A stretch of 43,921 nt of DNA from Rhodococcus maanshanensis NBRC 100610 (GTDB taxonomy: Bacteria > Actinomycetota > Actinomycetes > Mycobacteriales > Mycobacteriaceae). How positions within the stretch are numbered: position 1 is the first letter of the stretch; every line of letters starts with the position of its first letter. This document shows positions 9,573 to 27,727 of this stretch, piece after piece. Location: contig NZ_BCXA01000056.1 in assembly GCF_001894865.1 (NCBI RefSeq), forward strand, positions 1-43,921, in the 5' to 3' direction. A program made the position numbers and the translations under genes. Under the pieces are notes generated by a model. It saw nothing but the letters and a program-made list of their open reading frames with translations. It ran no database searches and was not told the DNA's origin.

Positions 9573-9895
9573 CCGCGATCGCCGAAGGCGCGACGCCGAC
9601 CACGCTCGGCGCGGTCACCGACCTGACCCCGGGTGAGGGCAGGGCGTACGCCGTCCGTGGGCTCCAGCTGGCGGTGTTCCTGTTGTCGGACGGCACGATC
9701 CGCGCGATGGACGCGGTGTGCCCGCACAAGGGCGGACCGCTCGCCGACGGACAGATCGACGGCGGCGTCGTGATGTGTCCGCTGCACCAGTACGCGTTCT
9801 CCTTCGACACGGGTGCGTGCACCTCGGAGGGCGTCGGTGCGGCGCAGACCTACCCGGCCCGGGTCGTCGACGGAATGGTGATGGTCGACATCTAG
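9569..9895 (+). CDS. nirD: Nitrite reductase small subunit NirD (Rieske-type)
   Basis: A small partner of NirB needed for nitrite reduction. The 108-residue protein is a Rieske-fold domain with a full ligand set: Cys51-Pro-His53 (CPHKGGPLADG) and Cys70-Pro-Leu-His73 (CPLHQYAF). It may therefore hold a real [2Fe-2S] cluster; many NirD proteins have lost these ligands. The ATG overlaps the nirB stop codon (ATGA), so the two subunits are translationally coupled. A 75-bp gap with a small hairpin separates it from narG, so narGHJI may be read through from nirBD or have its own promoter. Confidence 0.94.
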   Translation: MTAIAEGATPTTLGAVTDLTPGEGRAYAVRGLQLAVFLLSDGTIRAMDAVCPHKGGPLADGQIDGGVVMCPLHQYAFSFDTGACTSEGVGAAQTYPARVVDGMVMVDI

Positions 9896-9937
9896 GAACC
9901 CGGCACACAAACGCAGCTCAACAAGTGGGGCCCCGCC

Positions 9938-9952
9938 TGCGGCGGGCCGAAG
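9938..9952 (+). terminator. Short hairpin in the nirD-narG gap
   Basis: A GC-only stem (CCGCC at about 9938-9942 with GGCGG at about 9946-9950, extended by a further C-G pair) with a TGC loop lies between nirD and narG, just before the narG ribosome binding site. It could attenuate read-through or stabilise the nar message end. It is weak evidence on its own. Confidence 0.3.
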
Positions 9953-9970
9953 ATCCTCGGAGAGGTACCG

Positions 9971-12900: not shown

Positions 12901-13684
12901 AACCGGAACCGAGCTGGTCGACCTGGCCGCCGAGAACGAGGGCACCCGAATCCGATTCGCCGACACCCAGGCCAGGCCGGTGCCGGTGATCACCTCGCCG
13001 GAATGGTCGGGATCGGAGACCGGCGGCAGGCGGTACTCACCGTTCACCATCAACACCGAACGGCTCAAGCCATGGCACACGCTGACCGGCAGGCAGCACT
13101 TCTACCTCGACCACGACTGGATGGCCGAGCTCGGTGAGCAGCTGCCGATCTTCCGTCCGCCACTCGACATGACGGCGCTGTTCAGCGAGCCCGCGGTGGG
13201 CGAGACCCACGGCAACGGGGTCGGCGGCACCGTCACCGTCCGGTACCTGACCCCGCACTCGAAGTGGTCGATCCACTCGGCGTATCAGGACAACCTGCAC
13301 ATGCTCACGCTCTCGCGCGGCGGTCAGTCCATCTGGATGTCCGACGTGGACGCCGCCAAGATCGGTGTGGCGGACAACGACTGGATCGAGGCGAGCAACC
13401 GGAACGGCATCGTGGTCGCCCGCGCGATCGTCAGCCACCGGATGCCCGAGGGCACCGTCTTCATGTACCACGCCCAGGACCGCGCGGTCGACGTGCCGCG
13501 CACCGAGCGCACCGGCAAGCGCGGCGGCATCCACAACGCCTTGACCCGGCTGATGATCAAGCCCTCGCACCTGATCGGCGGCTACGCCCAGCAGTCCTTC
13601 GCGATGAACTACCACGGCCCGACCGGCAATCAGCGCGACGAGGTCACCACGATCCGCCGCCGCGACCAGGAAGTGACGTACTGA
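9971..13684 (+). CDS. narG: Respiratory nitrate reductase alpha subunit NarG
   Basis: Molybdenum (bis-MGD) catalytic subunit of the membrane-bound, cytoplasm-facing nitrate reductase, reducing nitrate to nitrite with quinol electrons. The 1237-aa length is typical. The N-terminal FS0 cluster motif is His67-x3-Cys71-x3-Cys75-x34-Cys110 (HGVNCTGSC ... RGCPRG). The segment FYDWYADLPEASPQ contains the conserved Asp that ligates molybdenum in the E. coli enzyme, and LIMWGSNVPVTRTPDAHYM is also family-specific. There is no twin-arginine signal, as in other NarG proteins with an inward catalytic site. GGAGAGG lies 7 nt before the ATG. The stop overlaps narH by one base (TGATG). Confidence 0.97.
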   Translation: MPSSTKPGSTTGVAGTDLADSLLKFGRHFQRGEASEDLRTLYQIGGRSSDDFYRDRMSYDKVVRSTHGVNCTGSCSWKIYVKDGIITWEAQQTDYPSIGPDKPEYEPRGCPRGASFSWYTYSPARVRYPYVRGVLLEMYRDAKERLKDPVLAWEDIASDPEKSKRYKSARGKGGFVRAEWWEAAEIVAAAHVHTIKKYGPDRVAGFSPIPAMSMVSHAIGTRFISLIGGAMLSFYDWYADLPEASPQVFGDQTDVPESADWFDAGYLIMWGSNVPVTRTPDAHYMTEARYRGQKVVVVSPDYADNTKFADQWLPARPGTDGALAMAMGHVILKEFFVEKDTERFTDYVKKYTDLPYLITLDERGDGYVPGKFLTAADLGDTAEGAEHKTVLLNAETGETVVPGGSLGHRFTESGKGHWNLDLHGIDPLMTMHEDPEMAANAVAVDFPRYDTSTPGVLRRGVPTRMVAGRRVTTVFDLMLAQYGVGRPDLPGNWPTGYDDTEEPYTPAWQEGITGVSAAAAARVAREFADNADRSGGRSMILMGAGTNHWFHSDQIYRSFLTLTMLTGCQGVNGGGWAHYVGQEKCRPVTGWATLAFGSDWSRPARQMQGTIFWYLATDQWRYDPFTAEVMSSPLANGTFAGRTAADNIALATRLGWMPSYPTFNRNPLDLADEADRLGKNAAEHVVDGLKTGHLQFAVEDPDAPENFPRCLTVWRSNLLGSSAKGNEYFLKHLLGADSNLNARDSEGIRPEELIWRDEAPAGKLDLLTTLDFRMTSTTLFSDVVLPAATWYEKHDLSSTDMHPFVHAFSPAISPPWETKTDFEAFHRIARGFSWLAEKHLGTRRDIVAVPLTHDSNDATAQPGGRVLDWKRGECEPIPGKTMPKLVVVERDYSAIAEKLGALGPLVEELGLTTKGVTTHPTEEVEYLRGVNGTVQTGVAAGRPSLAKDKHACEAILALSGTTNGRLATQGFEHLQERTGTELVDLAAENEGTRIRFADTQARPVPVITSPEWSGSETGGRRYSPFTINTERLKPWHTLTGRQHFYLDHDWMAELGEQLPIFRPPLDMTALFSEPAVGETHGNGVGGTVTVRYLTPHSKWSIHSAYQDNLHMLTLSRGGQSIWMSDVDAAKIGVADNDWIEASNRNGIVVARAIVSHRMPEGTVFMYHAQDRAVDVPRTERTGKRGGIHNALTRLMIKPSHLIGGYAQQSFAMNYHGPTGNQRDEVTTIRRRDQEVTY

Positions 13685-15318
13685 TGAGAGTTATGGCGCA
13701 GATGGCCATGGTCATGAACCTGGACAAGTGCATCGGCTGCCACACCTGCAGTGTCACGTGCAAGCAGGCGTGGACCAACCGCGGCGGCGTCGAGTACGCC
13801 TGGTTCAACAACGTGGAAACCCGCCCTGGACAGGGCTATCCGCGGCAGTATCAGGACCAGGAGAAGTGGAAGGGCGGCTGGACGCTCAACAAGCGCGGCA
13901 AGCTGACGCTGCGCACCGGCTCCCGGCTCAAGCGGCTGCTCAACATCTTCGCCAACCCCGACCTGCCGACGGTCTCGGACTACTACGAGCCCTGGACCTA
14001 CGACTACGAGAACCTGCTGGCCTCGCCCGCCATGGACACGGTCCCGGTCGCGCGCCCGAAGTCGCTGCTGACCGGAGAGGACACCAAGGTCACCTGGGGC
14101 GCCAACTGGGACGACGACCTCGGCAGCGGACCCGAGCAGGTCGGCAAGGATCCGTTGCTGGCCAAGGTCTCCGACAAGGTCAAGCTCGAGTTCGAGCAGA
14201 CCTTCATGTTCTACCTGCCGCGCATCTGCGAGCACTGCCTGAACCCGGCCTGCGCGGCGTCGTGCCCGTCGGGAGCGATCTACAAGCGCTCCGAGGACGG
14301 CATCGTGCTCGTCGACCAGGACAAGTGCCGCGGCTGGCGGCAGTGCGTCACCGGCTGCCCCTACAAGAAGATCTACTTCAACCACAAGACCGGCAAGGCC
14401 GAGAAGTGCACATTCTGCTACCCCCGGATCGAGGTCGGCATCCCGACCATCTGCTCGGAGACGTGCGTCGGCCGGCTGCGGTACATCGGCGTGATGCTCT
14501 ACGACGCTGACGCCGTCCTCGAGGCCGCGTCGGTCACCGACGACAAGGACCTCTACCCGTCGCAGCTCGGTGTGTTCCTCAACCCGCACGACCCGAGGGT
14601 GGTCGCCGAGGCCGAGCGCGCCGGCATCTCCGCCGAGTTCATCGAGGCCGCGCAGAACTCCCCGGTGTACAAGCTGATCGTCGACTATCAGGTGGCGCTG
14701 CCGCTGCATCCGGAATACCGCACCATGCCGATGGTCTGGTACATCCCGCCGCTCTCCCCTGTGGTCGAGGCCCTCTCGGACACCGGCCACGACGGCGAGG
14801 AGGCCGACAACCTGTTCGGTGCCATCGACTCGCTCCGCATCCCGGTCGAGTACCTGGCCGAACTCTTCACGGCGGGCGAGATCGGACCCGTGCGCGCCTC
14901 CCTGCAGCGATTGGCGGCGATGCGTGCGCACATGCGCCGGGTCAACCTCGGCGAGCCGACGCGGCCCGAGGTCGCGAACGCGGTCCGGTTGACCGAGACC
15001 GAACTGGAGTCGATGTACCGGCTGCTCGCCATCGCGAAGTACGAAGACCGGTACGTCATCCCGAACGGTGCAGGCTCGGACGCGCACCGGCTCGACGCGC
15101 TCGCCACCGGCTGCAGCCTCGAGGGCGACGGCGGACCCGGCATGACCGCGTTCGACGTGATGGCCGACAAGTTCCATCTCACCGAGCAGGTCGTCGACAC
15201 CAATTCCGATGCGGCCCCGGAGAACAAGTCCGGCCGGATCAACCTGCTCAACTGGGACGGCAAGAGCACAGCGGGCCTGATCCCCGCCGCGGCCGCCTCC
15301 AACCGGGACGGCGCCTGA
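13684..15318 (+). CDS. narH: Respiratory nitrate reductase beta subunit NarH
   Basis: Electron-transfer subunit carrying iron-sulfur clusters between NarI haems and NarG. The 544-aa product shows four cysteine groups: CIGCHTCSVTCKQAW, CEHCLNPACAASCP, CRGWRQCVTGCPYKK and CTFCYPRI...CSETCVGR. The Trp in CRGWRQC replaces a cysteine, as expected for the [3Fe-4S] cluster of NarH. The ATG shares its A with the narG stop codon, and the stop shares its A with the narJ ATG, so the operon is translationally coupled. A few codons downstream, MAQMAMVMNLDKC offers alternative Met starts, but the overlap favours the first. Confidence 0.97.
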   Translation: MRVMAQMAMVMNLDKCIGCHTCSVTCKQAWTNRGGVEYAWFNNVETRPGQGYPRQYQDQEKWKGGWTLNKRGKLTLRTGSRLKRLLNIFANPDLPTVSDYYEPWTYDYENLLASPAMDTVPVARPKSLLTGEDTKVTWGANWDDDLGSGPEQVGKDPLLAKVSDKVKLEFEQTFMFYLPRICEHCLNPACAASCPSGAIYKRSEDGIVLVDQDKCRGWRQCVTGCPYKKIYFNHKTGKAEKCTFCYPRIEVGIPTICSETCVGRLRYIGVMLYDADAVLEAASVTDDKDLYPSQLGVFLNPHDPRVVAEAERAGISAEFIEAAQNSPVYKLIVDYQVALPLHPEYRTMPMVWYIPPLSPVVEALSDTGHDGEEADNLFGAIDSLRIPVEYLAELFTAGEIGPVRASLQRLAAMRAHMRRVNLGEPTRPEVANAVRLTETELESMYRLLAIAKYEDRYVIPNGAGSDAHRLDALATGCSLEGDGGPGMTAFDVMADKFHLTEQVVDTNSDAAPENKSGRINLLNWDGKSTAGLIPAAAASNRDGA

Positions 15319-16016
15319 TGGTCGCGCTCGGATTGCGCCGCAAGGTGTCCAACAAATTCCGGCCGGGGGCGGAGGTGACCCTGTCCGAGCGGGACCAGCG
15401 GGTCGTGTGGCGGATCGCCGCCCTCCTGCTGGACTACCCGACGGAGCAGACGCTCGGGATGCTCGGCGACCTGCGCAGAGCGGCCGAGACGGTACCGGGA
15501 TCGGCAGGCGCGAACCTGGTTGCGTGCGTGGACTTCATGCAGCGCACGCCCCGGATCGAGCTGTCCTCACTGTACGTCGAGACGTTCGACCTGCGCAGGC
15601 GCAGCAGCCTGCACCTGTCCTACTACGCGTACGGCGACACCCGCAATCGCGGTATGGCGCTGCTGCGCTTCAAGAACGCCTACCGCAACGGCGGCGTGAC
15701 GCTGGGTGACCACGAACTGCCCGACTTCCTGCCCGTGGTCCTCGAGTTCGCGGCGACCACCGATGCCGCGCGCGGGTGGCGGCTGCTGGTCGAACACCGC
15801 GCCGTGGTGGAGGTGCTCCGGCTGTCCCTGCGCGACAGCGAGTCCCCCTTCGCTCCCGTCCTGGATGCGCTGTGCGCGACGCTGCCGGAACTCGACACCG
15901 ACGACAGGCAGAAGGTGGCGAAAATGGCAGCCGAGGGCCCGCCCGAGGAAGCGGTCGGCCTCGACACGTACGCGCTCGACCCCGCATTGCACCCCGAGAT
16001 GGGAGAACGACGGTGA
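15318..16016 (+). CDS. narJ: Nitrate reductase assembly chaperone NarJ
   Basis: A cytoplasmic, non-structural chaperone required for cofactor insertion into NarG and membrane docking of NarGH. The 232-residue, mostly helical protein has family features ALLLDYPTEQTLGML, the region IELSSLYVETFDLRRRSSLHLSYYAYGDTRNRG and the segment ELPDFLPVVLEFA. It sits between narH and narI with 1-bp and 4-bp overlaps (narJ TGA within GTGA), the usual narGHJI order. Confidence 0.95.
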   Translation: MVALGLRRKVSNKFRPGAEVTLSERDQRVVWRIAALLLDYPTEQTLGMLGDLRRAAETVPGSAGANLVACVDFMQRTPRIELSSLYVETFDLRRRSSLHLSYYAYGDTRNRGMALLRFKNAYRNGGVTLGDHELPDFLPVVLEFAATTDAARGWRLLVEHRAVVEVLRLSLRDSESPFAPVLDALCATLPELDTDDRQKVAKMAAEGPPEEAVGLDTYALDPALHPEMGERR

Positions 16017-16747
16017 CCACGCTGATGTGGCTGACCCTGCCCTATATCGCCCTCACCTCCTTCGTGGTGGGGCATGTGTGGCGCTACCGCAAGGACCAGT
16101 TCGGCTGGACCACCCGCTCCTCCCAGATGTACGAGAGCCGATTGCTCCGGCTCGGCAGCCCGCTGTTCCACTTCGGCATCCTGGCCGTGCTCGCGGGGCA
16201 CATCGGCGGCGTGTTGATCCCGGCCAGTTGGACGGAGGCGCTTGGCATCTCCGATCACACCTATCACCTGCTCGCGGTGGGGTTGGGCGTGCCCGCCGGC
16301 ATCGCGACCGTCGTCGGCCTGGCCATTCTCGTGTACCGGCGGATCAGTGTGCCTGCCGTGCGTCAGTCCAGCAGCACCAGCGACAAGATCATGTACGTGC
16401 TGTTCATCGCCGTCATCGCGACCGGGATGTTCAACACCCTCGGCGAGAATCTCATCCTCGGCGATTACGACTACCGCTCGACGGTGTCGCCGTGGTTCCG
16501 GAGCCTGTTCACGCTGAACCCGCAGCCGGACCTGATGGTCGGCGTCCCGCTCAGCTTCCAACTGCACGGCCTGACCGTGCTGGCGCTCCTGGCGATCTGG
16601 CCGTACACCCGCCTGGTGCACGTGTTCAGCGCACCGATCGGATACCTGGGCAGGCCGTACGTGGTCTACCGCAGCAAGGACGTCAAACGACCCGGTGGAA
16701 ACCGTTACGACAAGGCCTGGGAGACCGCAAACCGAAACCGCGCGTGA
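16013..16747 (+). CDS. narI: Respiratory nitrate reductase gamma subunit NarI
   Basis: Membrane cytochrome b subunit that oxidises quinol and passes electrons to NarH. The 244-aa protein starts at GTG (VTTLMWLTLPYIALTSFVVGHVWRYR), overlapping the narJ stop. It shows about five hydrophobic segments, with haem-ligand candidate histidines in HFGILAVLAGHIGG and in SFQLHGLTVLALLAIWPYTRLVHVFSAP, plus the family segment WRYRKDQFGWTTRSSQMYESRLLRLGSPLFHFG near the first loop. The C-terminus is basic and cytoplasmic. No narK transporter follows; the next gene is an MspA-type porin after a 138-bp gap. Confidence 0.96.
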   Translation: MTTLMWLTLPYIALTSFVVGHVWRYRKDQFGWTTRSSQMYESRLLRLGSPLFHFGILAVLAGHIGGVLIPASWTEALGISDHTYHLLAVGLGVPAGIATVVGLAILVYRRISVPAVRQSSSTSDKIMYVLFIAVIATGMFNTLGENLILGDYDYRSTVSPWFRSLFTLNPQPDLMVGVPLSFQLHGLTVLALLAIWPYTRLVHVFSAPIGYLGRPYVVYRSKDVKRPGGNRYDKAWETANRNRA

Positions 16748-16762
16748 ACACCTGTCGCCACA

Positions 16763-16783
16763 CTGCCGAAAATGTCGCGGCAG
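16763..16783 (+). terminator. Weak hairpin after narI
   Basis: CTGCCG and CGGCAG pair across a 9-nt loop 15 nt after the narI stop. A second small inverted repeat (CGCTA-TCAAC-TAGCG) follows at 16788-16802. Together they may end or slow nar transcription before the porin gene. Confidence 0.35.
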
Positions 16784-16885
16784 CCAGCGCTATCAACTAG
16801 CGTTCGAGAAGCATCGGGGATCTGTGTTGATTTGGGCCAATCGCGAGTACGCGAGGGGAAACTCGACCGAACGGATGTGGAATTC

Positions 16886-17590
16886 ATGGCAAGATTTCGT
16901 GGACCTCGGCGCCACCGCGGAACTGGGCCTGGTCGGGCGGCTGCGGTTGCCGCCCTCGCGGTTGCGGGAATGATCCTGGGAAACGGCACCTCGGCAGCGG
17001 TGGTCAACAATGCGAACAGTCTCATCGACTACAAGGGCAATCGGATCGAGGTCTCGCAGGGCGACACCAACATCACTGCCGTGCCGCCACTCGACAGTTC
17101 GCCTCTGAGCCGGGAGTTCTTCCACAACGGCTACGCCCAGGTCACCATCGACGGCCCGACGGCAGCGGACTTCACCGGCACCAAGCTGTCCTTCGGCTAT
17201 CAGATCGGCTACCCGGTCGCGCTCACGGGCGCGTCGGTGCAGCTGAACACCCCCGGACTCGGCTTCGAGCTCGAGCACACCGACGGCATCATCTTGGGCG
17301 ACTTCTTGGGCGATCCCAATGTCGAACTGGGCTTCGAGAACCGCGGCATGCTGGTAGGCGACATCATCCCGCAACAGAATCTGATCGTCGACCTCGAACC
17401 CGGCGGGATCACCGATGTCCCGCTGGTCAGCGAGAAGGAGTTCGACGGCCCGGGAGCCAGGATCCGGCTCGCGGGTGTGCACGGCAGCATCTCGGGTGCC
17501 CTCGGACAGGTCACGCTCCGGCCGTATGCCCGGGTCGAGACGGCGTCCGGCGACATCGCGATGACCTACGGCGCCCCGGTGCCGCTGTAG
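16886..17590 (+). CDS. MspA-family mycomembrane porin
   Basis: An outer-membrane (mycomembrane) porin for small hydrophilic solutes. The 234-aa precursor has a basic N-terminus and a hydrophobic signal (GRAAAVAALAVAGMILGNGTSA) with likely cleavage before VVNN. The mature part matches the MspA pattern: PLDSSPLSREFFHNGYAQVTIDGP, KLSFGYQIGYPVALTGA, and the C-terminal GVHGSISGALGQVTLRPYARVETASGDIAMTYG, close to the MspA rim and stem segments. The Met start at 16886 is chosen because the signal begins there; the upstream open codons look non-coding. It follows narI in the same direction, so nitrate or nitrite passage is a reasonable but unproved role. Confidence 0.9.
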   Translation: MARFRGPRRHRGTGPGRAAAVAALAVAGMILGNGTSAAVVNNANSLIDYKGNRIEVSQGDTNITAVPPLDSSPLSREFFHNGYAQVTIDGPTAADFTGTKLSFGYQIGYPVALTGASVQLNTPGLGFELEHTDGIILGDFLGDPNVELGFENRGMLVGDIIPQQNLIVDLEPGGITDVPLVSEKEFDGPGARIRLAGVHGSISGALGQVTLRPYARVETASGDIAMTYGAPVPL

Positions 17591-17601: not shown

Positions 17602-17655
17602 GCACAGACGAGGGCAGGGGGACGCGGGTTCGCGTCCCCCTGCCCTCGTCTGTGC
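17602..17655 (+). terminator. Very long perfect hairpin after the porin gene
   Basis: A perfect 25-bp inverted repeat (17602-17626 against 17631-17655) with a 4-nt loop (GGTT) starts 12 nt after the porin stop. No T-tract follows. It is a strong terminator candidate separating the porin from the jet operon, or a palindromic repeat element. Confidence 0.75.
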
Positions 17656-17731: not shown

Positions 17732-19225
17732 ATGAGTGATTCCGGAACGCCCGCCGCGGGCCCGCGCGATGACCGGCTGCGGCTGTTCGCCTTCACCAGC
17801 GCGGAGAAGCGCGGGGAGTACCTGTGGGTGCTGCGGGCGTTCGACCACGCGAGGGCGAACTACGTGGTCCTGCTGCACGCGGGCGAGATCGCGGAGATCC
17901 TGGGCCGGATCGCGGGCGACGACCAGGCAGGCCGGCTGGCGGGCGCCGAGATCACGCCGCTGCTCGAGCAGCTGCACCTGTGGGGCGTGCTCGAGCGCAG
18001 CTACGACGGCACCAGGGCGGCCACCCTCGCGGAGTACCGCAACCGTCACTTCGTCTACCAGTTCAGCCAGGCCGGCTACCAGGCTTTCCGGGCGGTCGAG
18101 GACGTGCTCGGGGCACGCCTCGAGGACGCCTCGCTCTCCCGCCTCGCGCTGCCCGACCTGCTGGCCGACATGCGGGAGCTGGCCGAGGCCAACCGGGATG
18201 CCGACGGCGACCTGATCTACCGCAAACTCAGCAGGCTCGATTCCACGCTGTCGGACATGGCGACAAGGGCGGCCCAGTTCTACCTCACGCTCGGCGACCT
18301 GGTGCGCACCACCGAGATCACCCCCGAGTCGTTCCTCGCGCACAAGGACGCGCTGCTCACCCACATGCGCGAGTTCAGCTCCGACCTCGCCCGATACGCG
18401 CCCAAGCTCGCGGAGGCGATCGCGGCCGTCGAGGACACCGGGATCGACCGGCTCGTGGCCAGGGCCGCGGCCAGCGACGAGCGGGTGTTCCTGACCCTGC
18501 ACGAGCGCGAGGACGACTGGCGGTCGCGCTGGTCGGGGCTCAAGCACTGGTTCGTCGCCGACGCGGGTGTCAGCGAATCGGACCGGCTGCGGGAGGGCAC
18601 CATGAGCGCCATCGCCGCTGTGCTCTCGCTGCTGCGCCGCGTCACCGAGACGCGCAGGGGCGGCGTGAGCAGGGAGAGCCAGCTGCGGCACCTGGCCGGC
18701 TGGTTCGCGGCGACCCCGACCGAGGACGCCGCGCACGCGCTGTACCAGGCCGTGTTCGATCTCGGCAGGCCACGGCACCTGTCGATGCTGCACCCCGACG
18801 CCGACATCATCCCCGAGTCGCGGTCCTGGTGGGACGCCCCGCCGGTGGAGATCTCGCGCACCCTCGCCGAGACCGGCCGCACCCCGTCTCCCGGCCTGCC
18901 CGGCCGGGTGCAACGCAACGACGCCAGCATCCGCAGGCTGCGCGAGGGGCAGCTCGCGGCGCAGCGCGCCCGCGCCACCGCGGCGAAGTCGCTGGCCGGT
19001 GGGGGTGTCTACGACCGGGTGCTCGACGAGCAGGAGACCGAGGTGCTGCTGAGCCTGCTCAACGCCGCCCTGACCGCGCGGGTGCCGGTGAGCGGTCGGG
19101 TCGGCAGCTCGACCGGCGCCGAGAACGGGGTCCGGCTGACGCTGCGCCCGCACGACGAGTCGACGACGGTCCGGACCGCCCGCGGCATGCTGCACCTCGA
19201 CCGGCTGCAGGTGAGCGTGCAGTGA
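17732..19225 (+). CDS. jetA: Wadjet type II JetA (TIGR02677/DUF2397 family)
   Basis: A kleisin-like or regulatory subunit of an SMC-type anti-plasmid complex. The 497-aa protein matches the TIGR02677 pattern: an N-terminal LRLFAFTSAEKRGEYLWVLRAFDHAR winged-helix region, LEQLHLWGVLERSYD with EYRNRHFVYQFSQAGYQAFRAVEDVLG, a long helical middle (residues about 120-330) and a C-terminal part containing PPVEISRTLAETGR and LLNAALTARVPVSG. It is first of three genes with 4-bp (GTGA) coupling to jetB. The family function in plasmid restriction is established for complete jetABCD loci; here no jetD is found, so the role in this organism is inferred. Confidence 0.88.
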   Translation: MSDSGTPAAGPRDDRLRLFAFTSAEKRGEYLWVLRAFDHARANYVVLLHAGEIAEILGRIAGDDQAGRLAGAEITPLLEQLHLWGVLERSYDGTRAATLAEYRNRHFVYQFSQAGYQAFRAVEDVLGARLEDASLSRLALPDLLADMRELAEANRDADGDLIYRKLSRLDSTLSDMATRAAQFYLTLGDLVRTTEITPESFLAHKDALLTHMREFSSDLARYAPKLAEAIAAVEDTGIDRLVARAAASDERVFLTLHEREDDWRSRWSGLKHWFVADAGVSESDRLREGTMSAIAAVLSLLRRVTETRRGGVSRESQLRHLAGWFAATPTEDAAHALYQAVFDLGRPRHLSMLHPDADIIPESRSWWDAPPVEISRTLAETGRTPSPGLPGRVQRNDASIRRLREGQLAAQRARATAAKSLAGGGVYDRVLDEQETEVLLSLLNAALTARVPVSGRVGSSTGAENGVRLTLRPHDESTTVRTARGMLHLDRLQVSVQ

Positions 19226-20631
19226 GGGCGCGCGAGATCCCACCGCTGGCGCTGGACTCCTACCAGCGCGCGGCCCGCATAATCCTCTCCAATCACCTTG
19301 TCACACAGAACTATCCGGACCGGATCGCGCTGCCGCTGCTGCGCAGGTGGGCCACCGAGCTGCGCGAGGACCTGCTCGAACTCTTCGGCTACCGGCTCGA
19401 GGTCACCGAGACGACGGCACGGCTGTTCACGGTGACCGACCGGCTGGACCCGACGGCGGCGGCCAGGACCGGCACCGACCGCACCTTCGACCGGCACCGC
19501 TACGCCTACCTCGCCCTGTGCCTTGCGGCGCTTGGCCGAGCCGGGAACCAGATCACCCTCTCGGAGCTGGCGGACCACGTCGCGGCCGACGCCACCCAGG
19601 TGGACGGCGTGGAACTGTCCACAGAGCGGGCCGCCGACCGGGACGCGTTCGTCGACGCGGTCGGCTGGCTCGCGGCCAGGGGCGCCATCGCGCTCGCGGA
19701 CGGCGACGCGGGTGGCTGGGCGGCCAATCCCAGCGCGGGCGAGGCGCTGTACGACATCGACCGGTCCGTCGTGGTGGCGCTGTTCCGGCCGCCGCGTGCC
19801 CTCCAGCACCTCACCTCGATCAGGGGCCTGCTGGCGGGGCAGGAGGTCCAGGCGGCCGACGAGGACGGGCTCGTGCCCGACCGGCCTGCCGACCCGAGGG
19901 AGACCGCGCGGCGGGTACGCCGGGCTCTGGTGGAACGCCCGGTCGTCTACGCGGACGAGCTCGGCGACGACGAGCGCCTGCAGCTGGCGCTGCCGCGGAC
20001 GGCTGCGGACGTCGAGTCCCTCACCGGGCTGGCCGCCGAGCGACGGGCCGAGGGCATCGCGCTGATCGACACCTCGGGCCGCATGTCGGACGTGCGCTTC
20101 CCGAGCACGGGCACCGTCGCCCAGGTGGCCCTGCTCCTGGCAGGCGAGATCGCCGACCGGGTGCTGGACCCGGACGCGGGCGAGCTCGTCCGGGTTCCCG
20201 CAGGCCCGACCCGCACCGCCGCGCTGATCGACGCGCTCGACGGCGCCATCCCCGCGGCAGGTGTCTTCCACGGACTCGCCGAGGAGCCTGCCGTCGACGC
20301 GGCACCGGACGCCGAGCCCGGCCCCGAGCCCGTGCTGTTCCCGCTCATCGACGACGCCTGGATCGCATCCGCGGTGGCGGACCTGGTCCGTCGGTTCGGC
20401 CGGACCTTCGCGGCACAGTGGCAGGCCGACCACGACGGGTTGCGAGAGCAGGCCGTCGCGCTGCTGGACAAGCAGCGACTGGTCCGCCGCACCGAGGGCG
20501 GCGTGCTCGTGTTGCCTGCGCTGGCGCGCTACCGCGGCGTCGTCGTGAACGTCCGCGACCGGGCGAGCCAGCCCGAGTTGTTCGGTGACAACCCCGATCC
20601 CGCAACCCCGTCCGAACCAGTAGAGAAGTAG
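19222..20631 (+). CDS. jetB: Wadjet type II JetB (TIGR02678/DUF2398 family)
   Basis: KITE-like partner of the Jet SMC complex, 469 aa from a GTG that overlaps the jetA stop. Recognisable TIGR02678 segments are the N-terminal YQRAARIILSNHLVTQNYP, LFGYRLEVTETTARLFTVTDRLDPT, FDRHRYAYLALCLAALGRAGNQITLSEL, and later REtARRVRRALVERPVVYADEL and EGIALIDTSGRMSDVRFPSTGT. The C-terminal segment ALARYRGVVVNVRDRASQPELFG ends just before jetC (13-nt gap). The protein is probably cytoplasmic and DNA-associated through JetC. The assignment rests on family resemblance and gene order. Confidence 0.88.
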   Translation: MRAREIPPLALDSYQRAARIILSNHLVTQNYPDRIALPLLRRWATELREDLLELFGYRLEVTETTARLFTVTDRLDPTAAARTGTDRTFDRHRYAYLALCLAALGRAGNQITLSELADHVAADATQVDGVELSTERAADRDAFVDAVGWLAARGAIALADGDAGGWAANPSAGEALYDIDRSVVVALFRPPRALQHLTSIRGLLAGQEVQAADEDGLVPDRPADPRETARRVRRALVERPVVYADELGDDERLQLALPRTAADVESLTGLAAERRAEGIALIDTSGRMSDVRFPSTGTVAQVALLLAGEIADRVLDPDAGELVRVPAGPTRTAALIDALDGAIPAAGVFHGLAEEPAVDAAPDAEPGPEPVLFPLIDDAWIASAVADLVRRFGRTFAAQWQADHDGLREQAVALLDKQRLVRRTEGGVLVLPALARYRGVVVNVRDRASQPELFGDNPDPATPSEPVEK

Positions 20632-20644
20632 AGGCAGAACTCGC

Positions 20645-23600
20645 ATGGCAAGCGCGCGCTTTCGCCCGACCCGGGCCGGGATCATCAACCTCTGGGACTA
20701 CCGCGACCAGGAGTTCTCCTTCGCCGACGGTCGCCTCGTGCTGCGCGGGCCCAACGGCTCCGGCAAGACCAAGGCCCTCGAGGTGCTCTTCCCGTTCGTG
20801 CTCGACGGCCGCATCGAGCCCCGCCGTCTGAACCCGTTCGCCGGCGAAGAGCGCACCATGAAGTCGAACCTGCTCTACCGCGGACAGGACTCCGCGCACT
20901 CTTACGTCTGGATGGAGTTCGCTCGCGGATCCCATGCGGACCCCGAGGCGGTCACCGTCGGCATCGGGATGCGCGCCACCAGGCAGAACGACAAGGTCAC
21001 CCGATGGCATTTCGTCGCCGACGGGCGGGTCGGGGTCGATTTCTCCCTGCTCGGCGGCGACGACCGCCCGCTGACGAAGCGCCAGCTGGCCGACCAGATC
21101 GGCACCGACGCGATCACCGACCGGCCCACCGACTACCGGGCCGCGATCGACGCCCGGCTCTTCGGGCTCGGCGCCGAACGCTACGACCAGCTGATCAACC
21201 TGATCCTCACCCTGCGCCGACCTCAGCTGGCGAAGAACCTCGACCCGAAGGGCCTGTCCCAGGCGCTGACCGACGGCCTGCGCCCCCTCGACGAGCAGTT
21301 GGTGCTCGAGGCGGCCCGCTCCTTCAGCGACATGGAGGAGGTCGGCCGCGCGCTCGAGGGCCTTGCCGCCGCGGATCAGGCCGCGCAGGGCTTCGTCGGG
21401 GTCTACACCAAGTACCTCCGCCAGCAGGCCAGAGCGGACGTCGAGCAGGTGTCGCGGCGACTCGAGTCCGTCGAGCACGGTGTCGTCGCGCTGGCCGAGG
21501 CCGCGGAGCTGCGGACCAGCCGCCAGCAGGAGCGGGTGGCCGCGGAGGAACGGTTCAATGCCGCGGAGCGCGCGCTCGAACAGGGTCGATCCGACCTCGA
21601 GACGCTGCAACGGTCCGGCGCGTACGAGGGCAAGCAGCAGCTCGACGACCTGGCCGCCGTGGTCGCCCAGCTCAAGCTCTCGACCGAGCAGCAGCTCGAC
21701 AAGGCCCAGAAGGCCCAGGCCGGTCTCGAGCAGCGCGCCGACGAGGCCGCGAGGTCCGCGAGCGCGGTGACCCGCGCGTCGGCGGCACTGACCAGGGCCG
21801 AGGACGAACTGCAGTCGGCGGCCGAGGACGCCGGGATCGCCTGGACCCCGTTGCCCGCCACCGCCCGTCCCGACCAGTTCGCGGCGACGCTGCGGGGCCA
21901 CGCGGAGGAGCGCGACGGAGATGTGCGCGCGGTACGGACCGCGCTCGGCACCGTCGAGAAGGCCGGGACCGAGCGGACCCGTGCCGACCGGGCCGGCACC
22001 CGCGGGAGCGAGTTGCTCGAGACGTCGAGGGCCGCCGTCGCCGAGGCCGAGGCCGCCACGGCGCTCGCCCGCGCCGAATGCGCGGCGGCGCTGCGGTCCT
22101 GGTGGACCGACCATTCGGCCCTGTTCGCCTCCATCGGGGTCGGCAACGCCCTGTTCGATGCGCTCGACTCCGCGGTGGCGAGCGCGGGCGACGACGAATC
22201 ACCGAGCCTGGCAACGGTGTTCGGCGAGCACACCGAGGCAGGCCTCGATACGGTGCGGGCCACCCGGGCACAGGCGGAACTGCAAGCCGGCCAGTCGGCC
22301 TCGATCATCGCCGAACTGTCCGCCGATCGGCAGCGGATCTCCGCGGAAACCGACGATGCACCACCGCCCTTCGCTGCCAGGGCCGGTTCTCGCGAGAATC
22401 TGGCCGGAGCCCCGCTGTGGCGCCTTGTCCGCTTCGCCGACACAGTGAGCCGGGAGACGGCCGCGGGGGTCGAATCCGCGCTGCAGGCCGCGAACCTGCT
22501 CGACGGGTGGGTGTACGGCGGCGACGGCCCCGCACCGGCAACCGATTCGGAGCAGCACCTGGTCGCCTTGCCCGAATCGGACCGCCCCGGCGGCCCGACG
22601 CTCGCCGACGTACTGACCGTCGAGTCCGACACCGGGGTGCCCGAGGCGAGGGTGCAGGCGATCCTGTCCTCGATCGCTCTGCACGCCGAGCCCACCGAAC
22701 CGGACGCCTTGGTCGGCGTCGGGGTCGACGGACGCTTCTGGCAGGGCGTGCAGCAGGGCAGGCACAGCAAGCCCGACGCCGAGTACATCGGCGCAACCGC
22801 TCGGGCCCGGCGACGCGAGCTGCGGCTGGCCGAACTCGACGACGCCATCACGGAGGCCGAGCGGTCCCGCACCGAAGCCCTTGCCGCGCAACACGAGGCG
22901 GGCGAGCTCGCCGGACGGCTCGCGGCCGCATCGAAGGCCCTGCCCCGCACCACGCCGGTGCTCGCCGCGCTCAAATCGGTCACCGAGGCGGCCGGGGCCC
23001 TGCGCACCCGCTCGGAATCGACCGCCGTCACCCAGCGCGAGCTGGACCAGGCCATCGCGGACCTCGGCGCGAAGGAAAAGCAACTGCGCGCGGCTGCGGT
23101 CGCGCACCGGACCCCGCACGGGGGCCGGGAACTGGACTCGCTCGCGGCGGCGATCCGGCACTTCGAGAAGCAGGGCGACCTGGTGCAGCGCTGCAGGCGC
23201 GAACACGACAAGGAGATCGAGCACCACCGCGAGTCGGACGACCGGCACAGCGAGGCCCGTGCAATCGCCGAGGAGTTCGCCGAGGAATCGGCGATCGCCG
23301 AGGAGAACTACGCGACGCAGGTGCAACGGCTGGAGATGCTGCGCGACAACCTCGGTGCGAGCGCCGAGCAGATCGATGCGGACCTGGAGAAGGTCCGCGC
23401 CCGGATCGAGGACCTCAAGTCCGAACAGCGGGCGGCCCGCAAGGCCAACGAGTCCGCCGTCGAGCAGATCGGCAAGGCGGAGGGTTCCCACAGCGCCGCG
23501 GTCGAGGCGCTGCGCAGCGCGCTCACCGAGGCACGGGCCGACGCGGACCGGTTGGCGCCGTACGCCCGCCGCGACCTGCTCGAGCTGTTGGGGATCGCCG

Positions 23601-24823
23601 AGCACCACTCCTGGCCCGCGAGCGCGGCGGCGTGGCTGACCGCCGACCAGATCGTCTACCGGATCCAGAACGAGGACGGGGCAGGCACCGGTGCGTCGGT
23701 GCTCCCGGACGAGGTGGACGCGCTCCATCGCGCGCTGGCGGAGGCGACGGAATCCGTGCGGGTCAGCGACGGGGCACGCAAGTCCACCAGGACCGCATTG
23801 ACCACGGCATTGCAGGACTTCGATGCGCAGCTCGCGGCGGCGGGTCAGGACTACCGACTGCAGTGGGACGCCCCGGACGGGCTCACCACGGTCCGTGTCC
23901 AGGACGAGCAGGGCTACTCCTCGATCGGGGAGTTCGCGGGCCGCATCGCCGTCGCCCGCCAGGATCAGGAACAGCTGCTCACCGAGTCCGAGCGGAGGAT
24001 CCTCGAGGACGCGCTGCTGACCGGTCTCGCGCAGCAGATCCACGAACGCACCGTCGACGCGCGGGCACTCATCGCGCAGATGGGCACCGAGATGCGCGAA
24101 CGGCGGATGTCCTCGGGCAACACCATCGGCGTGCACTGGGTGCTGGCCGACAACCTCGACGAGAGCTCGCGGGCGATCTCGAAGCTGCTCGACCGCGATG
24201 CCTCCGCGCTCGGAGCCGACGAACTGGCCACCATGCGAGCACATTTCGCGGCCCAGATCCGGTCGTCGCGGGCGGCGCACCCGGAGCGGTCGTACCCGGA
24301 GATCCTGGCGACGGCCCTGGACTACCGGCGCTGGCGGGTCTTCTCCTTCACCCTGATCGGCGGCGACGGCAGCGAGGATCGGCTGACCGTGGCCCGGCAC
24401 GGCGCCCTCTCGGGCGGTGAGCAATCGGTGTCGCTGCACCTGCCGCTGTTCGCGGCCGCACACGTCATGCTGTCGTCTGCGGACCCGCACTCACCTCGGC
24501 TGCTCGGCCTCGACGAGGCATTCGCCGGTGTCGACGACAACGGCCGAAGCGAATTGCTCGGCCTGAGTGTGCAATTCGATCTGGACCTGTTCATGACCGG
24601 ATACGACCTCTGGGTGACGTACGCGGGCGTACCGGGGTGCGCCCACTACGACCTCGCGCATTCGACCGCGGAGCAGTCCGTGAGCGCCGCCCTGCTGGTG
24701 TGGACGGACGGGGAGCTCCTGGCCGAGCACGACGGCAGCGACCTGGCGACCGCGCTCGGCTCGCCGCTGCGCCGCCGGGTCCTCGCCGCGGCGGAGGGCG
24801 GCCTGGAGTTCGCGCAGGTGTGA
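20645..24823 (+). CDS. jetC: Wadjet type II JetC, SMC/MukB-like ATPase (TIGR02680 family)
   Basis: The motor ATPase of the Jet complex, 1392 aa, expected to bind and extrude DNA. The N-terminal head has Walker A GPNGSGKT at residues 35-42 and the family segment LLYRGQDSAHSYVWMEF. A very long Ala/Glu/Arg-rich coiled-coil region runs from about 240 to 1150, interrupted near 550-720 by a globular hinge-like part. The C-terminal head has the ABC signature LSGGEQ at 1255-1260 and Walker B LLGLDEAF at 1286-1293, with catalytic Glu1291. All ATPase motifs are intact, so the gene looks functional. GAGG precedes the ATG. A perfect hairpin begins 16 nt after the stop; no jetD follows. Confidence 0.9.
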   Translation: MASARFRPTRAGIINLWDYRDQEFSFADGRLVLRGPNGSGKTKALEVLFPFVLDGRIEPRRLNPFAGEERTMKSNLLYRGQDSAHSYVWMEFARGSHADPEAVTVGIGMRATRQNDKVTRWHFVADGRVGVDFSLLGGDDRPLTKRQLADQIGTDAITDRPTDYRAAIDARLFGLGAERYDQLINLILTLRRPQLAKNLDPKGLSQALTDGLRPLDEQLVLEAARSFSDMEEVGRALEGLAAADQAAQGFVGVYTKYLRQQARADVEQVSRRLESVEHGVVALAEAAELRTSRQQERVAAEERFNAAERALEQGRSDLETLQRSGAYEGKQQLDDLAAVVAQLKLSTEQQLDKAQKAQAGLEQRADEAARSASAVTRASAALTRAEDELQSAAEDAGIAWTPLPATARPDQFAATLRGHAEERDGDVRAVRTALGTVEKAGTERTRADRAGTRGSELLETSRAAVAEAEAATALARAECAAALRSWWTDHSALFASIGVGNALFDALDSAVASAGDDESPSLATVFGEHTEAGLDTVRATRAQAELQAGQSASIIAELSADRQRISAETDDAPPPFAARAGSRENLAGAPLWRLVRFADTVSRETAAGVESALQAANLLDGWVYGGDGPAPATDSEQHLVALPESDRPGGPTLADVLTVESDTGVPEARVQAILSSIALHAEPTEPDALVGVGVDGRFWQGVQQGRHSKPDAEYIGATARARRRELRLAELDDAITEAERSRTEALAAQHEAGELAGRLAAASKALPRTTPVLAALKSVTEAAGALRTRSESTAVTQRELDQAIADLGAKEKQLRAAAVAHRTPHGGRELDSLAAAIRHFEKQGDLVQRCRREHDKEIEHHRESDDRHSEARAIAEEFAEESAIAEENYATQVQRLEMLRDNLGASAEQIDADLEKVRARIEDLKSEQRAARKANESAVEQIGKAEGSHSAAVEALRSALTEARADADRLAPYARRDLLELLGIAEHHSWPASAAAWLTADQIVYRIQNEDGAGTGASVLPDEVDALHRALAEATESVRVSDGARKSTRTALTTALQDFDAQLAAAGQDYRLQWDAPDGLTTVRVQDEQGYSSIGEFAGRIAVARQDQEQLLTESERRILEDALLTGLAQQIHERTVDARALIAQMGTEMRERRMSSGNTIGVHWVLADNLDESSRAISKLLDRDASALGADELATMRAHFAAQIRSSRAAHPERSYPEILATALDYRRWRVFSFTLIGGDGSEDRLTVARHGALSGGEQSVSLHLPLFAAAHVMLSSADPHSPRLLGLDEAFAGVDDNGRSELLGLSVQFDLDLFMTGYDLWVTYAGVPGCAHYDLAHSTAEQSVSAALLVWTDGELLAEHDGSDLATALGSPLRRRVLAAAEGGLEFAQV

Positions 24824-24839: not shown

Positions 24840-24878
24840 CGGTATCGGCGTCCGGCACGGATCCGGACGCCGATACCG
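24840..24878. terminator. Bidirectional hairpin terminator between jetC and the hydrolase gene
   Basis: A perfect 16-bp inverted repeat (24840-24855 with 24863-24878) around a 7-nt loop (CACGGAT) lies between two converging genes, 16 nt after jetC and 6 nt after the hydrolase stop. It should end transcription from both sides. Confidence 0.8.
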
Positions 24879-24884
24879 GTCACG

Positions 24885-25646
24885 TCAGTCCGAGGCCGTG
24901 TCGGCGGCCCGGCCGAGGTGACGGGCGAAGAACCGGGCCGAGCTGTCGCGCTCGTACTCGGGCACCTGGTTGTGCCTGCCCGGGTGGGCGTGCAGCGTCT
25001 TCTCCCTCGCGGCGAAGGCGTCGAACAACGCGATCGCAGCGGTGTGGTCGATTTCGTCCTCGTCCCACGGAATCCGGTACTCGACAGGGACGGTGATCTT
25101 TCTCGCCGCCTCGATCAGAGCGTCGTGCACATAGACCCCACCGAAGCTCACGGCAGCGATCCGGGAATCGACCGCCGTCAGCATCAGCCCGGTCACGACA
25201 CCCAACGTCATTCCGCCGTAGCCGATAGGCGCTTCGGCGCCGACCTCGGGCAGCGCCTGCAGGGCGTCCAGGGTCGCCTGCCATTCCGGCACCGCACGCT
25301 CCGCCAGCGACATGTTGTAGTCGATGACGATCGGGGCGATCGGAGCTATCGCCGCCCTGGCCCGATGGATCGCCTCGGCCCACCGTTGATCCTGACTGTT
25401 TCGCGGCCGGTCACCATGTCCGGGCGCATCGATGGCGGCGACGGTGTACCCATAGGTGGTCACGCAGTGGAGCGCGCTGGCTACCAGCCCCGGCGCCTTC
25501 TTGTGCATGCCGCCGGCGTGCCCCGACAGCAGCAGCGGTGCGCCAACGGTTCCGGATGTGGGTGACCAGAGCACGCCGGTGATCTCATCCAGGGTGAATG
25601 TACGTTCGATGACACCGTTCGACGATGTCTCAGAGGTGAAATGCAT
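24885..25646 (-). CDS. Alpha/beta hydrolase-fold protein with Thr in place of the nucleophile Ser
   Basis: A 253-aa cytoplasmic protein of the alpha/beta hydrolase superfamily, dienelactone-hydrolase-like. It shows the oxyanion-hole region PLLLSGHAGGMHKK, the strand and helix AAIDAPGHGDRPRNS, the elbow region IGYGGMTLG, an acid-residue segment (YRIPWDEDEID) and the C-terminal His in HPGRHNQVPEYE. The elbow should read G-x-S-x-G but reads G-M-T147-L-G, so Thr sits where the catalytic Ser is expected. Shine-Dalgarno AAAGG precedes the ATG. A 19-codon ORF lies 49 nt upstream. The substrate is unknown, and the protein may be non-catalytic or an unusual threonine hydrolase. Confidence 0.85.
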   Translation of the reverse strand: MHFTSETSSNGVIERTFTLDEITGVLWSPTSGTVGAPLLLSGHAGGMHKKAPGLVASALHCVTTYGYTVAAIDAPGHGDRPRNSQDQRWAEAIHRARAAIAPIAPIVIDYNMSLAERAVPEWQATLDALQALPEVGAEAPIGYGGMTLGVVTGLMLTAVDSRIAAVSFGGVYVHDALIEAARKITVPVEYRIPWDEDEIDHTAAIALFDAFAAREKTLHAHPGRHNQVPEYERDSSARFFARHLGRAADTASD

Positions 25647-26485: not shown

Positions 26486-27727
26486 TCAGCGCAGCGAGAC
26501 CCCGAGCAGTCCGTCGACGGCGTCCGCGAGCGCTCCCGGTGCCGACGGGTCCGAGCCGCCGTGATCCACGGCCCACCGGGCCCAGGCGTCAACAGCGTCG
26601 ATCGCCTTCGGGGTGTCCAGGTCGTCCGCCAGGTGCTGGCGCAGCCGTCCGATGGTGTCCTCCGCGGACTGGGCCGACCCGAGCGCGGCGGCACGACGCC
26701 ACAGCGCGAGGCGCTCCTCGGCCGCGGCGAGCACGTCGCCCGTCCAGGCCCGGTCGGTGCGGTAGTGCCCGGACAGCAGACCCAGCCGGATCGCCATCGG
26801 GTCGACGCCCTCGCCGCGCAGCTTCGACACGAACACCAGATTGCCGCGGCTCTTCGACATCTTCTCGCCGTCGAGCCCGATCATCCCGGTGTGCACGTAG
26901 TGCCGCGCGAATCGGCGGTCCAGCACAAGGGATTCGGCGTGCGCGGCCGAGAACTCGTGGTGCGGGAAGATCAGGTCGCTGCCGCCACCCTGCACATCGA
27001 AGCCCGAACCGATCCGGTTCAACGCGATCGCGGAGCACTCGATGTGCCACCCCGGCCTGCCCGGCCCGAACGGCGACGGCCAGGACGGCTCACCCGGTCG
27101 CTCGGCGCGCCACACCAGCGCATCGAGCCGGTCCTGCTTCCCGGCCCGCTCGGGGTCTCCCCCGCGCTCGGCGAAGAAGCGCTCCATGGTGTCGCGGTCG
27201 TAGCCGGACTCATAGCCGAACTGCTCGGTCGCGTTCGCCCGGAAGTAGACGTCCGGGTACTCCTCGTCGTCGACCACGTATGCGGAGCCCGCGGCGAGCA
27301 GCTTCTCCACCATCTCGACGACCTCGTTCACCGATTCGACGGCGCCGATGTAGTCGCGCGGCGGCAGCACCCGCAGCGCCTCCATGTCCTCGCGGAACAG
27401 CGCCGTCTCGCGCATGCCGAGCACCACCCAGTCCTCGCCGTCCCTGGCCGCACGCTCGAAGAGCGGATCGTCGACGTCGGTCACGTTCTGCACGTAGTGC
27501 ACGTTGTGACCGGCGTCGCGCCACAGGCGGTTGACGAGATCGAACGTCAGGTAGGTGGCGGCGTGCCCGAGGTGTGTGGCGTCGTAGGGGGTGATCCCGC
27601 ACACGTACATGGTGGCGGTCTCGCCCGGGGTGACGGGTCGGACCCGGCGGTCCGCGGTGTCGAAGAGCCGAAGCGGCGGCCCCTGACCGGGAACGGAGGG
27701 AACGGCTGTGTCGGACCAGGACTGCAT
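26486..27727 (-). CDS. mshC: Cysteine:GlcN-inositol ligase MshC (mycothiol biosynthesis)
   Basis: Joins L-cysteine to GlcN-Ins with ATP, the penultimate step of mycothiol synthesis in the cytoplasm. The 413-aa protein is a cysteinyl-tRNA-synthetase relative: zinc ligand Cys43 in [17 protein letters not shown], the HIGH-like motif THLGH at 51-55, zinc-site residues in [11 protein letters not shown] and [13 protein letters not shown], and KMSKS within [13 protein letters not shown]. It lacks the tRNA-binding extension of CysS and is the right length for MshC (M. tuberculosis about 414 aa). TAGGCT lies 7 nt before the ATG, so a leaderless transcript is predicted. Mycothiol is restricted to actinobacteria. 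Confidence 0.96.

Follow-up and report, generated by a model that had tools for sequence, protein, structure and literature searches.

Wadjet systems join a loop-extruding SMC complex to a nuclease: in published accounts, JetABC extrudes DNA loops, and a small circle that has been fully extruded is cut by JetD (PMC10586767, PMC12287153). MukBEF and several other members of the Wadjet group are described as lacking the nuclease (MksG/JetD), and such operons have been catalogued (PMC7617805); MukBEF apparently replaced Smc-ScpAB (PMC10586767). According to the same review, MksBEF of Pseudomonas aeruginosa is likely a JetABCD descendant that arose by loss of JetD, and it organises the chromosome (PMC10586767); joint loss of SMC, MksB and ParB is reported to be lethal in this species, any one of the three being sufficient (PMC7485682). 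How defence SMC complexes relate to chromosome condensins is called not resolved in that review (PMC10586767). Here, we analysed a jetABC operon of Rhodococcus maanshanensis NBRC 100610, located within positions 1–43,921 of contig NZ_BCXA01000056.1 (this whole stretch of DNA is the window in what follows). The operon very probably encodes a nuclease-free derivative of a type II Wadjet that has been kept by selection.

The operon consists of three open, adjacent and co-directional genes (positions 17732–24823, forward strand). The first, jetA (17732–19225, 497 amino acids), encodes the kleisin subunit (DUF2397/TIGR02677); jetB (19222–20631, 469 amino acids), which has a GTG start and overlaps the end of jetA by 4 nucleotides, encodes the KITE subunit (DUF2398/TIGR02678); and jetC (20645–24823, 1392 amino acids), beginning 13 nucleotides past jetB, encodes the SMC ATPase subunit (TIGR02680). 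All three products scored above the curated cut-offs of their families (JetA, 481 bits for PF09660 and 243 for TIGR02677; JetB, 233 bits for PF09661 and 141 for TIGR02678; JetC, 709 bits for TIGR02680 across residues 5–1353 and 69 for PF13558), and the best PADLOC models for the trio were JetA2, JetB2 and JetC2. A first-pass annotation of the window had described three full-length, coupled genes with an intact ATPase, and both points were confirmed. In JetC, the Walker A motif GPNGSGKT occupies residues 35–42 (20747–20770), the ABC signature LSGGEQ residues 1255–1260 (24407–24424), and the Walker B motif LLGLDE, which includes Glu1291, residues 1286–1291 (24500–24517), all on the forward strand. 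The proportion of G+C at third codon positions (0.90–0.95) is similar to that of most neighbouring genes.

Subunit families, A-B-C order and ATPase motifs are therefore those of type II Wadjet, and the best structure match was the Wadjet-II JetABC of Neobacillus vireti (9qe0/9qe1), whose JetC chain (9qe0_A, E 5e-69) was the sole relative of JetC found by sequence in the PDB. Structure searches with the predicted models matched JetA to kleisin and JetB to KITE folds, as in MukBEF, although model quality was limited (pLDDT 67 for JetA and only 57 for JetB) and unrelated winged-helix proteins followed close behind in Z. Families and fold matches together suggest that SMC, kleisin and KITE subunits are encoded in this one operon. 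In contrast to MukBEF, which belongs to another sequence family, the trio showed no MukB/MksB membership, the only matches above cut-off being PF09660, PF09661, PF13558 and TIGR02677, TIGR02678 and TIGR02680. An assignment to Lamassu was rejected, as the LmuB model gave 32.5 bits against 1420 for JetC2, and JetA, JetB and the next gene matched no Lamassu model.

The difference from type II Wadjet lies in the nuclease: JetD (TIGR02679/DUF2399), which that type requires in the operon or genome, was found in neither. The genome is a draft of 5.67 Mb in 96 contigs, rated 100% complete. TIGR02679 had no match in it, with all eight first-look candidates scored, in a run in which 18 of 151 genomes matched. 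The type I family PF09983 was likewise without a match (1 of 14 genomes, Corynebacterium glutamicum, matched as a control), as was PF09664, although no control genome matched in that run, which by itself is therefore uninformative. A profile built from 10 JetDs of this clade and its sister gave no match at E ≤ 0.1 in this genome, in which scoring covered just 12 of the 31 first-look candidates, or in five others of the genus; the same profile matched 17 of 151 genomes strongly (best E 5.8e-200 in G059; 3.3e-164 in G046) and missed one genome, G149, that TIGR02679 did detect. The claim of the first-pass annotation that no JetD accompanies the operon thus extends to the draft genome as searched, and its suggestion that jetD lies elsewhere received no support from TIGR02679, PF09983 or the clade profile. 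No MksG/JetD was therefore found to go with the complex, as in nuclease-free complexes of the MksBEF/MukBEF type. Traces of a former gene were also lacking. In 6 kb past the jetC of the window, the best tblastn hit (E 0.93) covered 25 residues more than 3 kb away. Across 62 rows without JetD, each searched over the same distance with 29 JetDs, no remnant was convincing: 12 rows gave hits at E ≤ 1 (best E 0.021), which spanned 20–53 residues and lay mostly kilobases from jetC.

JetC is widespread even in genera with few JetDs. Among 401 genomes of the family (TIGR02680 called at E ≤ 1e-40 and TIGR02679 at E ≤ 0.001), 159 contained TIGR02680 and 57 TIGR02679; both were present in 56, JetC only in 103, JetD only in 1 and neither in 241. 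In the genus of the window (g1), all six genomes had JetC and none had JetD. JetC-positive genomes, and those among them with TIGR02679 anywhere, numbered 37 and 29 in g6, 3 and 3 in g9, 14 and 0 in g10, 4 and 0 in g14, 4 and 1 in g16, 43 and 18 in g22, 26 and 2 in g23, 18 and 2 in g27, and 1 and 1 in g30; g18, g25 and g28 contributed one JetC genome each, without TIGR02679. Of these genera, g6 appears to be Rhodococcoides, g10 Prescottella, g16 Antrihabitans, g22 Nocardia and g23 Rhodococcus. Deeper sampling at E ≤ 1e-40 found TIGR02680 in 26 of 28 Rhodococcus genomes, two of them with TIGR02679, and in 115 of 128 Nocardia genomes; the latter figure counts any copy, and some of these genomes (e.g. 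G083 and G365) hold only another type of copy. A JetD found in Nocardia may be part of a second, divergent system: G067 carries a complete type II Wadjet arranged jetD-A-B-C (L126) plus a JetD-less orthologue of the window operon (L127), and G400 and G416 have gene positions compatible with such a two-system arrangement. Additional JetABC operons without JetD occur outside this group of orthologues. Genomes of g27 carry, beside the JetD-less orthologue, a second divergent JetABC (L143, L146, L148 and L149, the jetA of L149 not being recognised), and others, in g14 (L121–L123) and G140 (L124), lie far off in the JetC tree. JetD was absent from the 15–18 kb fetched around these loci, and no TIGR02679 match was listed for their genomes. 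Judged by eye, the second copies of g27 have a conserved neighbourhood, flanked by MarR-like and acyl-CoA-ligase-like genes at one end and by genes resembling thiolase and glutamate synthase at the other, and two regulator-like genes lie upstream of JetABC in L122 and L123.

We compared orthologous loci in a synteny set comprising the best 80 of 367 loci from a scan of named genomes. JetD followed jetC in 18 loci, was absent from 60 and was undecidable in two (L082 and L091), which end too soon. In 16 of the 18, jetD lies exactly between jetC and mshC (the names metH, PAC2, mshC, cysQ, PGM, uppP, nir and nar are those we take to apply from similarity, whereas narI and mspA have Pfam matches). 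A JetC tree of 90 rows, with L082 left out, placed the window, with support, in a clade whose 12 rows all lack JetD. Among the 30 Nocardia rows, 29 were JetD-less, the other being L091; JetD was present in 15 of 16 Rhodococcoides rows, and L052, L073 and L079 were isolated JetD-containing rows. Since none of the 12 rows around the window has JetD, its absence there appears to reflect an old loss, and not the recent simple deletion that the first-pass annotation had considered. One clade uniting all JetD-less loci was rejected (approximately unbiased test, p ~1e-78; 29 of 48 rows, on a quick LG+G4 tree with long branches), so that the grouping proposed in the same annotation holds for the neighbours of the window and fails overall. 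In this wider JetC tree of 48 rows the nearest sister lineage (G096 and G104) has JetD, and clades further out include loci of both kinds.

The JetD tree agrees with the JetC tree. The 18 JetDs of the clade form one group (support 100/99) whose sister is again the JetD of G104/G096, and JetC and JetD path lengths are correlated (r 0.97 for 153 pairs within the clade, r 0.92 for all 325 pairs). Because one JetD family tracks JetC in this way, jetD was most likely ancestral in this clade and repeatedly lost in Nocardiaceae while JetABC was kept, which favours the option of loss among those that had been offered for the missing gene. Assuming one gain, with JetD at the root, 15 losses are required on the JetC tree as drawn and at least 10 with weak branches collapsed; these counts become 9 and 7 if L073 and L079 are set to unknown, and 8 and 6 if L052 is as well. 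Undirected parsimony needs just 6 state changes, which is below the number of losses that a single gain implies, and would suit an ancestor without JetD whose descendants gained the gene several times at the same spot. We consider such repeated gain very unlikely, as the nearest JetC sister lineage has JetD, the 18 JetDs are monophyletic with the same sister and a split about as deep as that of JetC, and 16 of them occupy a single junction.

The nucleases of the relatives look active. The Glu of the CEN motif and both Asp of the DFD motif, which we take to be the Toprim catalytic residues, are invariant in 29 of 29 aligned JetDs, and those of L052, L068, L073 and L079 match TIGR02679 at 187–205 bits; the JetD-containing relatives therefore look like complete type II Wadjets. 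Two strains of Rhodococcoides kyotonense (L062/L071) differ at the junction itself: jetC is followed directly by mshC in KB10, and jetD lies between them in JCM 23211. In Rhodococcus sp. AW25M09 (L059, 6447–8551), jetA is split over two frames despite the presence of jetD, representing either a sequencing error or a broken gene.

JetABC has been retained in full where JetD is missing. When the 62 JetD-less rows (the window, L091 and 60 others) were compared with the 18 rows containing JetD, Walker A (GPNGSGKT) and LSGGEQ were identical in all rows of both groups, and the Walker B Asp-Glu was retained in all of them, with LLG or LLA preceding LDE. JetA, JetB and JetC span their families in every JetD-less row except L086, L089 and L105, where a contig end removes part or all of jetA. 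As an estimate of constraint we used the ratio of nonsynonymous to synonymous substitution rates (dN/dS; NG86 pairwise medians for pairs with dS 0.1–1.2), which in these high-GC genes is usable only in ratios between genes. In the clade of the window, dN/dS was 0.19, 0.23 and 0.23 for jetA, jetB and jetC (66 pairs each), compared with 0.10 for mshC (45 pairs) and 0.10 for metH, giving ratios to mshC of 1.9–2.4. The JetD-containing Rhodococcoides gave 0.08, 0.10 and 0.07 for jetA, jetB and jetC, 0.12 for jetD, 0.05 for mshC and 0.04 for metH, with ratios to mshC of 1.4–2.0. Values for jetA, jetB and jetC were 0.21, 0.26 and 0.20 in Nocardia (metH, 0.13) and 0.03, 0.07 and 0.05 in the R. erythropolis group (mshC, 0.04). 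JetABC without JetD is thus under purifying selection, and its constraint relative to core genes is similar with and without JetD, being slightly weaker in the clade of the window when measured against mshC.

These data also bear on the view that the operon is a decaying relic, in which loss of jetD came first and JetABC is now drifting towards loss. The lack of any TIGR02680 match in 15 of the 156 Nocardia and Rhodococcus genomes would fit this view, as would a dN/dS of JetABC about twice that of mshC in the clade of the window. However, the per-gene dN/dS maxima in that clade (0.26–0.33, 66 pairs) are well below 1, JetABC also outpaces mshC somewhat in lineages that have JetD, and the proteins span their families, but for the three contig-cut jetA genes, with ATPase motifs intact in 62 of 62 rows. 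We therefore regard decay as extremely unlikely. A release of positions after JetD loss was not detected either: columns of JetA, JetB and JetC that are invariant in the JetD-containing lineages showed 2.5–4.2% mean deviation in JetD-less ones, which does not exceed the reverse control (3.3–6.0%).

JetABC is found mostly at one chromosomal place. In 62 of the 80 loci, metH or PAC2 lies upstream, or mshC downstream, within the stretch examined; the remaining 18 include short contigs and some loci that have moved. JetC distances track those of MetH (r 0.95, 50 loci), MshC (r 0.86, 40 loci) and UppP (r 0.855, 32 loci). In this respect the locus differs from type II Wadjet elsewhere. A search of 72,556 plasmid records (E ≤ 1e-30) found JetC relatives in 17, all below 60% identity, from Streptomyces (13), Pseudonocardia (2), Cupriavidus (1) and Nonomuraea (1); no Rhodococcus or Nocardia plasmid was among them. 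On one of these, the 377-kb linear Streptomyces plasmid NZ_CP109482.1 (L162), a complete jetABCD is flanked by several transposase genes, unlike the window, and its JetC is 45% identical.

A mostly fixed chromosomal position makes a defensive role less likely. JetABC might still defend without cutting, by compacting, silencing or mis-segregating incoming circular DNA through loop extrusion. This would be compatible with the equal conservation of JetABC with and without JetD, and the core is described as sensing DNA shape in type I Wadjet (PMC10586767). We nevertheless think it unlikely: a frequent, vertically inherited chromosomal position is not that of a mobile defence gene, and plasmid replication genes are not depleted. 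Replicase genes of family PF03090, which we take to mark plasmid initiators, occurred in 16 of 103 genomes with JetC only, 27 of 241 with neither protein and 3 of 56 with both; they were thus not rarer with JetC only than with neither, although this test is weak. The comparison of genomes with and without JetD among those with JetC is suggestive only (Fisher p 0.074) and confounded by genus, the counts being, for example, 0 of 29 and 0 of 8 in g6, and 2 of 2 and 7 of 16 in g27. Plasmid exclusion by JetABC alone, one of the roles suggested by the first-pass annotation, accordingly gained no support, within the limits of this weak test. The most PF03090 matches in the 401-genome sample, six, were found in G193, one of the two Rhodococcus genomes without TIGR02680.

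The absence of decay could also be explained if JetABC partners another nuclease or topoisomerase encoded elsewhere, which would replace JetD. Conserved JetABC columns without visible decay after JetD loss would fit this, and some Nocardia, such as G067, carry a second complete JetD-containing system, so that JetD action in trans is possible there. However, the genome of the window gave no match to TIGR02679, PF09983 or the clade profile, and the genes beside jetC offered no substitute: 10 neighbours scanned in JetD-less loci contained no nuclease family, two having no match at all and the others matching metabolic, regulatory or transport families, and no neighbour gene was common to all JetD-less clades; distant generic partners were not searched for. 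We consider a replacement partner distinctly improbable. The genes adjoining jetC in the JetD-less lineages are in fact varied, among them hemerythrin, alcohol dehydrogenase, a BTAD regulator, chitinase-like and transporter genes.

In the window itself, jetABC looks like a closed unit, as perfect inverted repeats lie before jetA (25-bp arms, terminator-like, 17602–17655, in the gap after mspA) and after jetC (16-bp arms, 24840–24878, at the site that jetD occupies in relatives). The second repeat separates jetC from a convergent gene (24885–25646, reverse strand) that is not part of the system. The first-pass annotation had seen jetC run into a hairpin and a convergent hydrolase gene; repeat and gene are there, whereas searches of Pfam, NCBIfam and PADLOC (E ≤ 0.01) gave this gene no match to back its reading as a hydrolase, and its cluster was not seen in the displayed jetC neighbourhoods of the other 80 loci. 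An mshC-like gene, which marks the conserved locus and in many relatives comes next after jetD or jetC, lies further on (26486–27727, reverse strand). Immediately upstream of jetA, the window has genes resembling nir and nar together with one for an MspA-type porin (7125–17590), and this nar-mspA block adjoins jetA in 4 of 80 relatives (L041, L043, L065 and L118).

Taken together, the best explanation overall, which we favour by a modest degree of confidence, is that JetABC is a nuclease-free SMC-kleisin-KITE complex descended from a type II Wadjet and may work on the chromosome as MksBEF does. The comparison with relatives supports an ancestral jetD that was lost several times in Nocardiaceae, with the JetABC core retained intact and mostly in one place. 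In this scenario, JetC would hydrolyse ATP, and the complex would load on DNA and extrude loops like the Wadjet and MukBEF cores. Because the end state of extrusion would not be cleaved without JetD, loop extrusion itself may be the selected function. As the core has been kept intact after loss of the nuclease, JetABC probably does a DNA job that involves no cutting, most likely an accessory part in folding or segregating the chromosome alongside Smc-ScpAB. ScpA is present in this genome, in contrast to the apparent replacement of Smc-ScpAB by MukBEF, and JetABC would therefore be a second condensin. The likeness to P. aeruginosa MksBEF is that of a nuclease-free SMC-kleisin-KITE complex beside Smc; MksBEF differs in being MukBEF-like by description, whereas the subunits here match type II families, and in having a demonstrated function, which for the window complex would hold by analogy. 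That the main job of JetABC is on the chromosome we judge an even bet.

Several observations weigh against this interpretation, beyond the low count given by undirected parsimony. A chromosome role and silencing of foreign DNA would fit the sequence data alike; of the cleavage-free three-subunit condensin envisaged in the first-pass annotation, long retention under purifying selection is borne out, and the choice among non-cleaving jobs is not. JetABC is not essential, as 13 of the 128 Nocardia genomes and 2 of the 28 from Rhodococcus gave no TIGR02680 match at E ≤ 1e-40. The dN/dS values of the JetD-less window clade and Nocardia are above those of Rhodococcoides, both absolutely and slightly in relation to mshC. 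Since the columns were not released, any JetD-binding surface shows no visible decay, and the complex may still bind something at that site. As for ancestry, other outgroup clades of the wider JetC tree include JetD-less ones, and the eight outgroup rows of the 90-row tree were picked among JetD-containing loci. Finally, the JetDs of L073 and L079, neither of which adjoins mshC, pair weakly (86/78) and contrary to the JetC tree, which hints at some exchange.

JetD-less operons of the Wadjet group are already known; what is new here is a type II form that is widespread in Nocardiaceae and shows recurrent loss of the nuclease. A literature search, with preprints and most subscription papers outside its scope, found no report of a JetD-less type II complex in Nocardiaceae, and the catalogue in PMC7617805 may include these loci. 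PADLOC is described as calling a Wadjet only when all four genes are present (PMC9252829). Surveys of Rhodococcus defence systems, in the sections that deal with Wadjet, read the locus as defence and do not remark on the missing nuclease (PMC12915292, PMC10482375). One lists R. erythropolis NI86/21 with a "Wadjet_II" of three proteins with consecutive identifiers (PMC12915292), which we infer to be JetA, JetB and JetC; the other reports Wadjet together with a restriction-modification system and Eleos or PD-T4-3 in 73% of 97 Rhodococcus genomes (PMC10482375). Such surveys probably count JetD-less loci as Wadjet, so that the high numbers for Rhodococcus and its relatives include them, and a plasmid-defence reading should therefore not be made without checking for JetD.

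It is tempting, if still somewhat doubtful, to see in the Nocardiaceae many independent transitions in which an immune system turned to maintaining the chromosome, the nuclease having been shed some 6 to more than 10 times and the core having become a widespread condensin, of a type for which the literature search gave no description. Because close relatives differ in whether one orthologous locus includes the nuclease, and the losses are repeated, such a transition would be testable with matched strains. If our reading is true, close pairs such as Rhodococcoides kyotonense JCM 23211, with JetD, and KB10, without it, would allow a direct test of how an SMC defence system turns into a condensin.

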